Shown piece after piece: positions 16,544-25,602 of a stretch of DNA of 64,000 nt (its first letter is position 1; every line of letters starts with the position of its first letter). The stretch is from Zychaea mexicana. Lineage: Eukaryota; Mucoromycota; Mucoromycetes; Mucorales; Lichtheimiaceae. The notes below the pieces were generated by a model. It ran no database searches, was not told where the DNA came from, and was given only the letters and a program-made list of their open reading frames with translations. Both the position numbers and the translations under genes were made by a program. Location of the stretch: the NCBI RefSeq assembly GCF_025766255.1, contig NW_026516670.1, positions 558,001-622,000 on the forward strand. Reading direction: 5' to 3'.

Positions 16544-18947
16544 TCACGCATATGGCAAGAAACTCCATGCTGTCCCCACTGCCGCCATGCTTATGGCTAT
16601 CGCAAGGATGCCTATATTAAGACAGGATCGGGCATTCGAAATGCTGTGCGTATAAAGGCGTTCGTAACACATCAAGGGGAAAATCACTGAAATGCCAAAA
16701 CTGAACAGTGCGCCCAAGAGTGACATGACCCGATCGAATCCCGGAAATATAAGGGCAATGTAGACCAGGATTGTGGTAACAGATAGACGGACGATGGTGG
16801 TGAATAGAGCTTGGCGAAGCCAGGAGGAGCAGGACAGCCATGCGTCGATACGAGGACGTGCTTGCAACCATAATTCACAGGCAACATTGAGTGGATTCAT
16901 GATCAATGCGAATTTGGCGATAGGCGTAATCACCACTAGCCAGAGGGCCACGCTGTTGAAAATCTTGTAGTATCCATCGGTAACGGCCAAGTTTTGTGTG
17001 ATCTATTTTTGTATGTTTCCAAAGTCAGTACTACTGCTTAGCGAAACCTTCTTATTATTGCTGCTACTATGGTACCAGCATAGCAATTCAAGTATTGCTA
17101 GCGCGGCCGTACAGCAGCAATACTATTGTTGTTGATGCCACAGTACTTAGCAAATTAGGGTTGTTTGTTATTTCTTTACCTCTTGCATAGTTTCCGATCC
17201 AAACATTAGGTAGCCCGACACAGCCATGAGCGCATACACAAAAATTGTCAAGACGTAAGTGATGTCGACCATCTGATCGTACTTTTTGGGATTCTCCATG
17301 TCGCGGTAAATGGCCGGAAACACTGCATGACCAGCAAAGCCCGCCATCATCAGTCCAAAGCTCAGGGGGATCCGTGACGGATCCGATGGCAGCAGCTCAG
17401 TTTCCTGTATTAGATATAGTTAGTTACACAGCCCATACATCAACATGAAGCAATCCAGGAGATTTTTTGAGGGCGGGCAAGTGATAATAGTAGATACTAG
17501 TGTTGATCATGCAATGGTGACTGGTGAAGCTGGTAGTATAGCATTGAACAAGTTGGAAAAAAGAGAGAGGGAGTCTAATCAAGAACGTACCATGGGGTCC
17601 CAAAGACTTCCGGGTTGTGTCGTTTTGGAAAGTCCGTCAAAAAGAACAATGACCATGAGCAAGACACAGCTGATGATACCAAACAAGCTTGCCACAGACA
17701 GCTTGCGCAGTGATAGGAATTCAAACGGTGCCATTAAGCAGAAACACAGTATCCGTGAAGTCACAAAGTCCAAAGATGGATAAAGTGCCTGGAGACCATC
17801 GCCTAGCAAGGTCACCATCGCTACACTGAAAAATTAAATATGGTAAGTCTTTCACACGCCAAAGGAAAAGGGAAACGGAGACGCACAGGATATGCGTTTG
17901 ATACAATATCACAGATCTGTTTTTCTTTGTCTTTATCCATATCAATAACATATCTACAGCAAATAATAACAATAGACATATTTACCCCATGGTGGCTAGT
18001 TCTACATAAAACAGCCCTCCAATAAATGCACGTCCGCGCTCTCCGAATGCAGCATTACCCATGTCGCCGTAGGTCGATGCACCCGGCGCTGCATCTAGAC
18101 TGCGCGCTAGCATTTTGGCTGTGTAGTTGGTACCGATGGCACAAAAGATAAAAATCGCTGAACCGATCAGCCATCCAGCGTATCGAAACGCCAGAGGAAA
18201 AGCTAGGATGCCGACACCAATAAGCACATTCATGGCGTTAAATACTGACTGTACAAATGTGGATTTCGTGTGCTGTTCGTCGTGTGGTGGTGGGAGTTTG
18301 AGCTGTTCTGATATCACAGAGGCGACTGTTGCATGTCGGGACAATGGGGCTGTCGTGCCTAATAAGTGGTCCATCGAAGGCGGTGCAGTGCGTTGTGAAA
18401 GTGTCTTGTAGATACCGGTGTTGCTGTCATAATCCCTAGGAAAAACGTGTTGCATTTGTTGGTGGTGGCTGCATATACGTAAAGTAGCAAGCGAGCAATT
18501 TAATTAGTGTACATAATGCGGTGCACAAGCAAGGGAAACGCCTCATATGCAACTAGTAGCAGTAGTTTATTACTCATAATACCTTGATTTAGGCTCAAGT
18601 GGATCAACAGTGGTTTCTTCGTCGTCAATGAAGCGAATACTGCGATCGTCTCGATGATATCCGGAGGAGGATAAATTTTCAGCGATATAAATCATGGAGG
18701 AGCGAGAATAGGATTCTGCAAAGGAACCAAGGGTGTCTCTTAACGACCGTGGTCGAGAAGTAGTATTGCCGAGGAGTTGGCCTAGATCTTCAGTAGGACT
18801 GAAATAAATTGTCTCTGCCAACGAAGATTCTGCTGGTGGTCGTTGTATTGATCCATAGTAGTTCGGGCGCGCGTTGTTTGGCATGCGAATATCGACAGGT
18901 GACGCTGGCATGTCATCACTGACAGATGAAGTTGAATTAGAGGCCAT
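16544..18947 (-). CDS. Vacuolar-type amino acid transporter (AAAP/AVT family)
   Basis: Five exons, 577 residues: 18947-18583, 18435-17986, 17825-17591, 17404-17180, 17002-16544. The first 160 residues are hydrophilic and Ser-rich (cytosolic tail). The remainder carries about 11 hydrophobic segments of the Aa_trans family, beginning with 'FVQSVFNAMNVLIGVGILAF', then 'YAGWLIGSAIFIFCAIGTNY', 'GDGLQALYPSLDF', 'FGLMMAGFAGHAVFPAIYRD' and 'VTPIAKFALIMNPL'-like sequence. These match the AVT1 subgroup of vacuolar amino acid/H+ transporters (AVT1 imports neutral amino acids into the vacuole in yeast). The long N-terminal extension is typical of Avt1. Substrate is inferred from subgroup only. All exon phases join cleanly. 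Confidence 0.9.
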
Positions 18948-19634: not shown

Positions 19635-19643
19635 GTGGCTGCG
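19635..19643 (+). repeat. Target-site duplication, left copy
   Basis: GTGGCTGCG directly precedes the left end of the Mutator-like element and recurs exactly at 22924-22932 after its right end. A 9-bp duplication is the hallmark size for Mutator-like elements. Confidence 0.85.
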
Positions 19644-19695
19644 GGGTGTCACTAAAAATGGTGCACCGCTGAAATGGTGCACCGAGATTTGTGAC
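19644..19695 (+). repeat. MULE left terminal inverted repeat
   Basis: Matches the reverse complement of 22872-22923. The core reads AAAAATGGTGCACCGCTGAA, then a second ATGGTGCACC and TTGTGAC. Mismatches concentrate at the outer end. Confidence 0.88.
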
Positions 19696-19781
19696 TCGGA
19701 AAATATGCTTTTTTCTCTTCGGTTCCTGAAAGAACGCTTTGAACTACATTCCAAGCATAATCTACTGTTCACAATATAACA

Positions 19782-22658
19782 ATGTATAAATACATTACCA
19801 ATTTTCGAAGAAGATTTGTTAAGGATTCATATGAAGAGGAGGCTCCCGCATATTTTGACTCCAAAAGCAAAAAGTACTATTCTCGACAAAGCATCTAGTC
19901 CTTCACGACACTCAATCAAACTTACTCAAAACTTCTCGATTTTTGACAGGTACGTAAAATTGAATTTGGACATTGGATGGTCTATGCGCAAGGTTTATGG
20001 TCCTCGAAAACAAAAGTTCAATATCCATCGCTACAAGAAGAAATGCAATGGTTTTGTGCGCTGCAAATTCTATGGCAAACATTTGCGCCCGCGCTGCGAT
20101 TTTGAACAAATTCATAAACAATGCCAGCTTGGGTGTATGCGCTGCGGAGGCGATTTAGAGCACGTTGACACTTGTAAAACAGAGGCGTTCTACTATTTCG
20201 ACGGCAATAAATGCACTGTTAAGCAGATCGGCACACATGACCACGAACAATATACTGCGAAGCATCTATCGGAAGTAGAGAAGGAAACACTGGCAGAGAG
20301 AATTGGAAGTGATCCAACGGTGACACCCAAGGCAGCAATTTATGGCAACAACAAGCGAACTGGGGAAATCGTTGAATCGATCATTAAGATCAACCCAATT
20401 CTTGGCACGAGGGACAGAGCCGAGTATGAAATCAACAAAGTACGCGAGGAACGAGATATTCCAAGAAAAGGTGAATTTTTCGGCGACTTAGGGCAAGATT
20501 ATGAATGAGTTCCCTGGGTACTTCCTCCACGCCCACGTTCTGCCAGGCTCATTCTTTTTGGCGTATCGGTCACCGGCTCTTAAAGAATATGTTCACTTTC
20601 AAGATTTTCCGGCTGTTACCGATGTCACTTTCAAGGCATTTGAGAAAGGATACTATCTCTGCTCAACAGTGATCTATGTTCCTGAGCTGAAAAAACACAC
20701 AGTGATCTTCCAAGCTGTCCTGGATGGCCTTTCACAAACCTACTTTGCCCAATACTTCTTTGCATTCTTCACAGAGTACAACGTTAAGTTTGAAGGCAAC
20801 AATTCCTTTCTCGGTATGATGATGGATTTCTCTTTGGCACAAAGGAATGGATTTCTGCAAGCCTACACACAGTACACCAGAAAGGATGACGGCATGCGGT
20901 TCCTAAAAGGGTGCTATATGCACTGGATGCAATCCGTTCAACGTCTCAACAGCAATCACAGCATCGTTCTACCCGAATCCAGCGAACGATTTCGTGAACT
21001 GACCTGCATCATTCAGACAACTGAAGATGCTGATGAATTTTGCCGTAGTTGTAAGGAACTGGTGACAAATTTCAAGCATACTTTCAAATGGCTCAAATGG
21101 TGGCTACAACCATCTATAAGCAGCATGATTTTTCGACATCGCTCCAGCATGAATGACGCCCTCCGCAGCCACCCTTATCGTACCACAATTGCAGTGGAAG
21201 CGTTCCATAGAGATTTATACCGAGATACTGTACACAACTTGCCTATATCTCTAGCGCTTCCACAAACGTTGAATTATATCCGCTCAGATGAATTGACACT
21301 GAAAAACTATGAACAAAATGCGGTGCCTGCTTCATACAACAGAGCACCACGACAAACTCGAAAACGATCAAAGAAAAACTTTGACAATGATGGACGTGCT
21401 CCGGATGTTTTCGGTAAACTTGTTAATGATGTTACCACCGATCAACAGCCACTGGACCATTTTCTTTATGAAGATCAAGCTGAAAGCAAGACACTATCAC
21501 AAGCAGAAAAAGCCACCAACAAGAGCACCATGCCCTTCGCCAAAAGACTTTCGAAAGAGGATATCAAAGCAGTATCACAGCAAGATATCTTGGATAAGAT
21601 TGATGAACGCGCCCTGCACCTTTTGGATATGGAAGTCGATCCGTTCACGTTGAAGGAAATTGAGACAATGGCTGAGAACTTGGAGACAGGGTCAGACGAA
21701 ATGATGCAATATATCATGGGTGGCGAGATGAAGAATGAAAAGAAGAAGCAAGAAGTGAAGGAGAAAAATGCAATGAGCAAGACCAAAGAAAAGATGAAGA
21801 CGGAGAAGAAAACAGAGAAAACGATGGACAAGAAAACTGAAAACAAGCAGAAGAAAACTGAAAACAAGCAGAAGAAACGAAAACACACGGAAAATCAAGC
21901 TGAGGACTTATGGCCAAGTAACAGGAACTTCGAAGAGAACCATGGTAATATTAATAGATTATTGGAAGCGATTGGCAGTATAACTGATTTCAATTTAATA
22001 GTTTCGTGTCCATCGAGAGATCCCGCTCGATTGCTCGTTGGGAATTAAGCAAATCAAAGCTGACGGATGGTGTGGATATCGTGCCCTTGCTCTCCAACTT
22101 CATGGTGACCAAGATCAATATATTAAGGTCAAACAAGCAATTCTTGATCAGCTTTTTGCGAACTATGATTTCTATCGCGATACTCTATAAAACGGACGTG
22201 AGGTCATAATGCAAAATGCGATCAAACGAATGGAATATGGTATCACACCAGAAACAGCACAATACCAGAAGTACACTTGCAGTTCGGATTATTGGTTCAA
22301 TGCGATAATAGATGCCCAAATTGCTGCAGATGCATATACTGTGCCGATTGCAGTATATGATGATCGCTTGGATTGGAACAGTGTTTTGTACTTGCCTTTT
22401 ACTATCCCAAAGGGAACCAATCGGCAACCGCAGCCAATAACTCTTTTTCTTAGCTCAAATCACTTCAACGCAATCGACCTCGTTCCATCCAGAGCACGAC
22501 ATATGGAGTGGCCACCCGTCAGACCTTATCATGAGATAGGTTGGCATCGTCTTGGACTTAAGGCAGATTACAAGACTACATGGCGGTATCTTCATAGAAG
22601 GCGCTTGACCGAAAACGAGAAACAATTTTTCATAGACATTGGCACAAGTGTCATATAA
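19782..22658 (+). pseudogene. MULE transposase plus OTU protease, frameshifted
   Basis: A likely start ATG at 19782 opens a frame ('NFRRRFVKDSYEEEAPAYFD') that stops near 19887. The reading then continues in a second frame to 20508, a third from about 20501 to 22048, and a last one from about 22035 to 22658, with an in-frame TAA at 22188-22190. The second block has a Cys/His-rich putative DNA-binding domain (C-x-G-D-L...C...F-Y-Y-F-D...H-D-H). The third carries the transposase: first Asp in 'PAVTDVTFKAF', second in 'MMMDFSLAQRNGF', the 'GCYMHWMQ' Cys/His motif, and a candidate Glu in 'TIAVEAFHRDLYRD'. A Lys/Glu-rich repeat (KKTENKQ) links to an OTU-like domain: 'ADGWCGYRALALQLHGDQDQ' with the catalytic Cys, and 'LFLSSNHFNAIDLV' with the catalytic His. 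So there are three frameshifts and one nonsense codon. Confidence 0.82.
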
Positions 22659-22871
22659 AAACAGCAGAATAGAATTTATTAAATATTACTAAATATCATA
22701 AATTTCGGTTTACACAGTGCCAGAGCTAAAGTGAAGTTTGGAAGAGAAATTAGCGTATGGGATGCATATACGAAGGTAGAAACCGCAGGAGAGAAAGGAA
22801 TGATGGGTGCACTTTTCTGACACTTTGTCGGTGCACTTTTTCTGTGCGCCTCGAACCACTGTCACATCGCT

Positions 22872-22923
22872 GTCACAAGTCTCGGTGCACCATTTCGGCG
22901 GTGCACCATTTTTCGTGTCTCTC
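22872..22923 (-). repeat. MULE right terminal inverted repeat
   Basis: Inverted copy of 19644-19695, with two GGTGCACC palindromes near 22883 and 22900. Confidence 0.88.
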
Positions 22924-22932
22924 GTGGCTGCG
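22924..22932 (+). repeat. Target-site duplication, right copy
   Basis: Exact repeat of the nine bases at 19635-19643. Confidence 0.85.
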
Positions 22933-23630: not shown

Positions 23631-25602
23631 CTAGAAAAAGGCATTTTTTGTTAGTCTTTTTTGATGCAATGGAGGGGGTTCATTCGAGAGCAGAATAAGC
23701 GTTACCAGGAGCTGCTCTGTTGCCAAGGCCAGAGCAAAGTTTTCCATTTCTGCCAGTCGCAATGCTGTGATGTGACCGCCTTGTTGTTTGACGTGCTGTA
23801 GGATACGCCTGGCTGCCCTGTCGTCATCCATGTATTGGGTTTGTACTACGAGTAAACCACTCGGAAATTTCCGTAGCCGGAACGGCAGCTTCAGTTCTTC
23901 AAATTGCTGGGCTGCTTTGTATATATCCTCGGGAGATATAAGTGCTAAAGACATAAGACATGGTGTTTGTTTTGTTGGTAAAAATGAGTTCCTTCAAAAA
24001 ACTTGTCTACTATTGTTACAGGGAGAAAAAGGAGTGCAAGCTTACCGACACCGCGCGCTCGATTAAAAATACAATATAAATCCGTGAGTGATTTCATGCT
24101 ATCCTGTTCGTTAAAGATTTTGCTCAAAAACTCTCCCAGTTCTCGTGCAAGTTCTTGGTGATAGATAGAACCAGCCGAACCACTGGATAGAAGTACCCAG
24201 TTAGCAAAGCATTCTTCTCTTAAACCATCATCTATCAGTATCATCATTAGAAGGGATGAAACTCAACCTACCGAGTTACTGGATCAGATATACCCAGTTC
24301 TAAAAGGTATGTACGTAGCGTCGATAGATCGCCTTCCGTATTATTGGTATCTCTGTTCATTTTTTGTGAAATGGATTCTGCTAGTTTGACCATTTCTGTT
24401 GCTTTTCCCATCAGTCGATCCAGGTCTTGGAAGGCATCCGTCATTGTCTCGCTTGCTTCAGCTGTATTTTTTTCAATTCTATCCTGGATAGCACCTATAT
24501 AGGTACCATTTAAAGCGTGTCCAAATAGAATAAACCATCCCCTCCCGCTATAGCTAGAACGTACTGATGCCAGCACCGCGAGATTTAGATATGGATGTCC
24601 GTTCAACGGGTGACTCTATCGGCTGTGAAACAACAACATTGCATATAAGACCATCATCCTTCACATTTCCTCTAAGCCTGTTTTTCTTTTTCAAAGAATC
24701 ACCTTATCCCACGCTTTCGCTTCAAGTGCACTCTTGAGCTTGCCAAGAAAACCTGATTGACCTCCATGACGAAAAGCGAGACGAACATGTGCATTATCCT
24801 CGAGCTGTACCGTCGCCACGGATTCAGATATACTGGAAGGTGTGGATACCGTCGGTGAAGGTAGAGGGACAGTCGCCAAATCCGTACCACACATCTCACA
24901 CTGCATCATGCTTGGATGATTGATAAACGTGCATGCTCGACAAGATACATCACCATTGTTCGATGATGGAGGTGGATCAGTAGGTGGTGTTGGCATGGTA
25001 GGTGTAGTAGGAGTAATAGCTTCTTCAGCTCGCTTGACTCCGCACAATTGACATTTTTCGAGCGTGCCTGCGTTCGCGAAGGAACAGATAGGACATACCC
25101 ACGTCGGCAGAGTCATTTGAGGCATGCTTCTTCGAGAAGGACTAGATACCGTTTTTTTCTCCAAGTGTAAAATGATTTTGGGGGATGCTCGTAGGAAACC
25201 GCCCTTTTTCTACCAATTAGTCCAGCGCACAAGCTCGATATATTCAGCAGCACCATCTTTTATAGCAGATAGGTTATAAAACTTACATAGCTGTCAGCTT
25301 CTTTGATATCTCCAAGTGACAGTTCAACAGCTTTTTCAGCAGGTCGCGCATTGTCCACGTAAATGATGCGATGTGATGTCAAGTAACACACGCCGTCCTG
25401 GTAATCATCAATCTTGTTCTTGCTGTTTTCGTGTGCGTGCATCCAAATTAGCAAACGTTTTAAAAATATTTTTTTTTGGTTATTTGTATATACCTTACCG
25501 CTCATATAGACCAACATTGCCTTGCTGTATAATAAGTGATTCGTTGGGTAGTAACACAGGTCGTCGAGAAGAAGACAATTCGGTCCGCTCAAAGTATTTC
25601 AT
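23631..25602 (-). CDS. VPS36: ESCRT-II subunit Vps36
   Basis: Seven exons, 492 residues: 25602-25499, 25422-25287, 25209-24703, 24622-24565, 24494-24272, 24182-24046, 23944-23631. Vps36 joins Snf8 and Vps25 in ESCRT-II, which sorts ubiquitinated cargo into multivesicular endosomes. The N-terminal GLUE domain starts with 'MKYFERTELSSSRRPVLLPN' and is split, as in budding yeast Vps36, by two NZF-type zinc fingers (C-x2-C-x10-C-x2-C at about 117-140 and 170-187), before resuming at 'LAFRHGGQSGFLGKLKSALE'. The EAP30 winged-helix region follows (about 270-492): 'DAFQDLDRLMGKATEMVKLA', 'LYCIFNRARG', 'SPEDIYKAAQQFEELKLPFR'. Exon 3 ends at a weak donor (GTGATT), yet frame and family sequence fit. The Met at 25602 matches the family start. 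Confidence 0.94.

Follow-up and report, generated by a model that had tools for sequence, protein, structure and literature searches.

A transposon of the Mutator superfamily, whose transposase is predicted to be fused to an OTU-type cysteine peptidase, was identified in the stretch of Zychaea mexicana DNA analysed here (64,000 nucleotides, referred to as the window). Sequence analysis of the window identified positions 19782-22658 as the coding part of this DNA transposon. An earlier note had read the region as a Mutator-like transposase joined to an OTU protease. The two indeed belong to one element, and they form a single protein after predicted splicing of one genomic copy, L009, as well as in fused gene models of other Mucorales. 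The window element is a decayed copy of a cut-and-paste transposon and is probably of the MuDRF type, the GCM-domain branch of the Mutator superfamily, an assignment made from its GCM domain and its 9-bp target-site duplication. OTU-bearing Mutator-like elements (MULEs), counted as adjacent domains, are common in the host genome.

The element, its copies and its predicted gene

The whole transposon measures 3,280 bp (19644..22923, plus strand), with ends common to other copies. It is bordered by two 9-bp target-site duplications, at 19635..19643 and 22924..22932, which match each other perfectly. The left terminal inverted repeat of 52 bp (19644..19695, plus strand) pairs with a right one of the same length (22872..22923, minus strand). 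Within them, a 46-bp core of the left repeat is complementary to 22872-22917 at 93%, and the alignment of the inverted ends scored 80, compared to a maximum of 28 among 300 shuffles. No second copy was found inside the window when the element was compared to it by blastn. The element sits between two genes on the minus strand (17982-18455 and 23631-25592); these neighbours encode an amino-acid transporter (Aa_trans, 3.1e-19) and a VPS36-like ESCRT-II protein (EAP30, 1.3e-14; Vps36_ESCRT-II, 6.1e-11).

The 50.3-Mb host genome holds at least nine matches to the transposase reading frame, at least eight of them full length and the window copy included; our counts of copies, OTU matches and MULE matches in this genome are all lower bounds. 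The full copies have their ends in common, with the exception of L012 and L014, where the left end is shortened, and of L012, where the right end is altered as well. Target duplications were exact in five of the eight (9 bp in the window copy, L009, L011 and L013; 10 bp in L010) and carried one mismatch in L015. None was seen at L012 and L014, the remaining two full copies. Over aligned bases, the seven other full copies were 94.9-98.5% identical to the window copy. After removal of two introns, the reading frame was interrupted in seven of the eight, among them the window copy, and L009 was the sole uninterrupted one, giving one protein of 912 amino acids after predicted splicing.

The gene is predicted to consist of three exons on the plus strand. 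Exon 1 (19782..19873) begins with a start codon at 19782 and is followed by intron 1 (19874..19949; 76 nt, GT...AG). Exon 2 (19950..21944) encodes the GCM zinc domain, the DDE core and a Lys/Glu-rich linker, its frame being broken near 20490 in the window copy. Intron 2 (21945..22001; 57 nt, likewise GT...AG) separates it from exon 3 (22002..22658), which encodes the OTU cysteine-peptidase domain. A script that searched for these particular sites in the eight full copies found both introns in all of them, intron 1 with 75-76 nt and intron 2 alike in length. The junction of intron 1 is crossed by protein P0005, a Circinella minor gene model, and that of intron 2 by protein P0032 of Phascolomyces articulosus. 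Transposase and OTU domain are thereby predicted to be joined in one protein. If intron 2 were kept, L009 would have a stop directly before the OTU domain. One Trp codon of the OTU domain has become a stop in two copies, TAA in the window (22188-22190) and TAG in L011.

Domains of the predicted protein

Zinc-binding domain, DDE transposase, Lys/Glu linker and OTU domain had been proposed to follow each other in this order, and profiles and predicted folds recovered the same arrangement, with a GCM domain and an IS256/Mutator-like core in the first two places. The GCM DNA-binding domain also occurs in animal glial-cells-missing transcription factors. Here it lies approximately at 19830..20270 (plus strand). 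Its profile matched MGCM1 with an E value of 8.7e-9, and the predicted fold of the related protein P0006 matched 1odh, a GCM structure. The Pfam GCM profile responded in 3 of 15 members only and stayed below the cut-off. In the window copy, 15 nt are missing after 20060 and one Cys is gone with them.

The transposase core (approximately 20501..21300, plus strand) is of the RNase H-like IS256/Mutator kind, with aspartates at 20621-20623 and 20825-20827, a glutamate at 21197-21199 and a CxxH motif (20912-20923) between the second D and E. Its predicted fold was closest to ISCth4. The Pfam MULE profile PF10551 matched neither the window reading frames nor L009, and the place of the window was absent among the 150 PF10551 matches of the genome scan. 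The linker that follows (approximately 21330..21944, plus strand) has 44 K+R and 36 D+E in the 196 residues of L009.

A structure model of the C-terminal domain of L009 showed an OTU fold, together with a profile match. The DGxC motif and the downstream His were present in the window copy and in relatives. We assigned the catalytic residues of the window copy from the sequence as Cys 22071-22073, His 22461-22463 and Asp 22476-22478 (plus strand). Of the 17 rows in an OTU alignment, 16 cover the Cys position and all of these keep the residue; the His position is covered by 15 rows, 14 of which keep it. OTU fold and profile ruled out a chance motif match as the source of this assignment. The Pfam OTU profile PF02338 did not match the OTU domain of L009; when it was run on five further MULE OTUs from this genome, one of them reached an E value of 0.13, below the cut-off, and its scan of the Z. 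mexicana genome gave two matches, neither at the window family. The Ulp1 (C48) domain was absent in the Pfam scan, an OTU fold occupying the C-terminus instead, and a search of PHROGs returned no match. The search with OTU and MULE profiles recommended in the earlier note was thus informative in part: with single sequences Pfam gave neither domain, but a family profile, which proved to be needed, works.

Comparison of L009 with the Phascolomyces protein P0002 gave identities of 65% for the OTU domain (137/212 aligned), 63% for the GCM domain (62/98 aligned), 70% for the DDE core (189/271 aligned) and 41% for the linker (66/161 aligned). The OTU domain is hence conserved like the DNA-binding and catalytic parts of the transposase and well above the linker. 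This points to selection acting on the function of the OTU domain, which would be that of a deubiquitinase.

Pairing and exchange of peptidase domains

The OTU domain occupies the same place in all eight full copies and in other species. Fusions of transposase and OTU were found in other Mucorales in the proteins P0002 and P0032, both from Phascolomyces, and in P0021 and P0024, which are automatic gene models. Some relatives are already labelled 'OTU domain-containing' in public databases. The OTU part of P0002, used as a query, matched only P0002 itself (1 among 451 candidates), so that relatives were gathered via the transposase and from the Z. mexicana genome. Since the fusion recurs in these Mucorales, the domain is not a local capture. 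A host gene captured only here, which the earlier note had named as an outcome that would speak against it, was ruled out by the fused relatives, the reading of the fusion and the genomic pairing described below.

Outside the window family, 80 OTU loci were compared, and 51 of them had a PF10551 MULE domain upstream on the same strand at a distance of 1,438-1,675 bp; the control arrangements (MULE downstream or on the opposite strand) occurred in 4 of the 80. These loci stem from 88 OTU matches (83 of 96, after 13 of the window family had been dropped, and 5 more) and were compared against 150 PF10551 matches, 29 having no MULE in range. OTU-bearing MULEs are therefore frequent in the host genome beyond the window family. 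Three such loci were read directly, and in each an OTU frame comes after a long frame for the MULE transposase (in G000, C302:84200-88300, L057; C47:82900-87300, L058; C90:465800-469900, L059). Their PF10551-type transposases form a branch separate from the window family.

The expectation that all intact relatives carry an OTU domain held for several fused proteins, but others have a different domain at the same place and some gene models have none. The different domain was found in the relatives P0006, P0008, P0030 and P0022 and in the Z. mexicana loci L030, L031, L032, L033, L039 and L042. A profile made from the four proteins, run against a small custom set, recovered the main piece of all six loci at E values of at most 4.6e-8. 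L030, L033, L039 and L042 are diverged GCM-type transposases with this USP-like domain and no OTU domain. An N-x4-C is invariant in the Cys box of this domain (N17 and C22, six rows), and each of the three members complete at the C-terminal end shows an H-F motif, a feature of USP peptidases. The Pfam UCH profile responded in one of six members with an E value of 0.029, below the cut-off, from the Cys box onward. The structure model was unreliable in this region (pLDDT below 50 across 736-902), and a sequence search of the PDB with this domain yielded no match of note. The Cys-box pattern of the host USP loci is similar as judged by eye. Taken together, this C-terminal domain is probably USP-like. 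Among GCM-type transposases, the gene models P0026 of Circinella minor and P0014 of Lichtheimia ornata lack any recognised peptidase domain; the domain may have been lost or the models may be short.

On the transposase tree (38 rows, 12 with a C-terminal label), the OTU and USP labels required three changes, forced by the starred branches, and 0% of 200 bootstrap trees had a single change. Shuffled labels needed as few changes in 117 and 101 of 500 cases; the labels are thus not detectably clustered by clade. The other 26 of the 38 rows are unlabelled at the C-terminus, many of them short gene models or fragments, so loss of the protease in some relatives is possible. A long-branch check, for which two long branches were flagged, gave two changes without P0021 and three without own33, in quick trees of 32 rows, 9 of them labelled, that left out P0032, P0033, P0023, own42 and own36. 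It appears from these trees that the C-terminal domain was exchanged among relatives while its position was kept, with two or three changes required and the USP-like identity being probable. That P0021 and P0024 are gene models weakens this exchange but does not remove it.

In the OTU tree, the window-family domain grouped with OTUs of the PF10551 MULEs C282, C154 and C268 (87/89, not starred) and apart from those of P0021 and P0024; rows marked 'x' were counted in the MULE group though without a MULE match in range. Starred branches alone forced one change, and 2% of 200 bootstrap trees had one. A transfer of OTU domains between MULE branches stays a suggestion, because long branches meet in this tree and its starred branches force only one change.

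Possible role and comparison with known elements

We consider it fairly probable that the family is an autonomous MuDRF-type transposon, whose intact copies encode a protein of about 912 amino acids and whose OTU domain removes ubiquitin at the transposase or its complex. Splicing, DNA binding, transposition, deubiquitination and its target are what we infer for this protein. The GCM zinc domain would bind the inverted ends and the DDE core would excise and insert the element, leaving duplications of 9-10 bp. The OTU domain would strip ubiquitin from other parts of the machinery, its most likely substrates being the transposase and proteins of the transposition complex, and this removal would counter proteasomal turnover or help repair.

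The OTU domain might act on host targets instead of protecting the transposase. Such targets could be silencing factors, or ubiquitin carried by chromatin or repair factors where the element inserts. A role in repair was proposed for OTU and Ulp1 domains of transposons (PMC2836005), and the fusion would bring the domain to the site of transposition. A fused rather than separate OTU, however, fits an action near the transposase, although the fusion leaves the target undecided, and we find host targets rather unlikely. That the domain handles another ubiquitin-like modifier, or is a non-catalytic ubiquitin-binding module, is improbable in our view: the Cys and His conserved in nearly all rows that reach them favour catalysis, even though the fold does not reveal linkage or modifier choice and some of the matched OTU structures were, by their entry titles, solved with ISG15 besides ubiquitin.

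MULEs are prone to acquire host gene fragments (PMC6446971), and two of the fusions come from automatic annotation. The domain could then be a passenger derived from an adjacent or captured gene, with the fusion existing only in gene models or by chance. We regard this as very improbable in the light of its constant place in the full copies, in Phascolomyces and in the 51 of 80 MULE-side loci, of catalytic motifs that are mostly kept and of a conservation between species equal to that of the transposase. Tentatively, ubiquitin removal by the transposase fusion can be placed in a wider frame: a deubiquitinase may be a standard, exchangeable MULE module in Mucorales, carried by PF10551- and GCM-type branches, with OTU and USP-like domains swapped at one position and OTUs moved between branches. 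Ubiquitin removal would then be a selected need, and retention of intron 2 could serve as a switch that decides whether a form includes the OTU domain.

MuDRF was named in a rust-genome paper for GCM-type MuDR elements with GCM and DDE domains and 9-bp duplications (PMC3164196). The window element shares with them the combination of both domains in one protein, the 9-bp duplication and the occurrence in fungi. The passages on MuDRF in that paper mention no protease and place the elements in Basidiomycota and Naegleria, whereas the window lineage adds a C-terminal OTU domain and is nearest to Mucorales proteins. Ginger1 elements carry an OTU or, in other families, an Ulp1 domain C-terminal to the transposase and thus also exchange the peptidase type at one position (PMC2836005). 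Their transposase, though, is Gypsy-integrase-like with a GPY/F motif and not MULE/IS256-like, the hosts in the table of that paper are animals, and the alternative domain is Ulp1 where relatives of the window element have a USP-like one. Ulp1 peptidases also occur on MULEs of hydra, lancelet and plants (PMC2836005). These likewise pair a Mutator transposon with a peptidase for ubiquitin-like modifiers, but the window element has an OTU fold and a GCM zinc domain.

Helitrons and Helentrons carry OTU and/or VTD deubiquitinases, and their authors considered that deubiquitinating activity, rather than its class, may benefit the elements (PMC9741609). Deubiquitinases of different classes occur there side by side or interchanged, which resembles the exchange of candidate deubiquitinases among relatives of the window family, but on rolling-circle elements with HUH/helicase proteins instead of cut-and-paste DDE elements. 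The PF10551 MULEs with OTU of the host genome may belong to the MULE-Mucorales group, Mucoromycota MULEs with 10-bp duplications, 40-bp inverted repeats and one reading frame (PMC6446971, Table 1). SWIM is the sole motif given for that group, while the window family has a GCM domain and no PF10551 match; the main text of this survey names neither OTU nor Ulp1.

The notion of a parallel invention in fungi is therefore to be narrowed. OTU and Ulp1 domains on Ginger1, Ulp1-bearing MULEs and Helitrons with OTU are published (PMC2836005, PMC9741609), but our searches of open-licence PMC papers turned up neither an OTU-bearing MULE nor an OTU/USP exchange on such elements. New here are transposon-borne deubiquitinase-like domains on Mutator-type elements of Mucorales, and a peptidase is now added to the GCM-type elements. 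Ubiquitin and SUMO proteases are found on unrelated transposons, and in the papers examined their role in transposition is not established. A compact element with a single protein would make a simple test system, requiring one catalytic-residue knockout. The presence of two candidate deubiquitinases at the same place of one transposase type speaks for selection on the activity as such, and suggests that ubiquitin removal helps these elements move.
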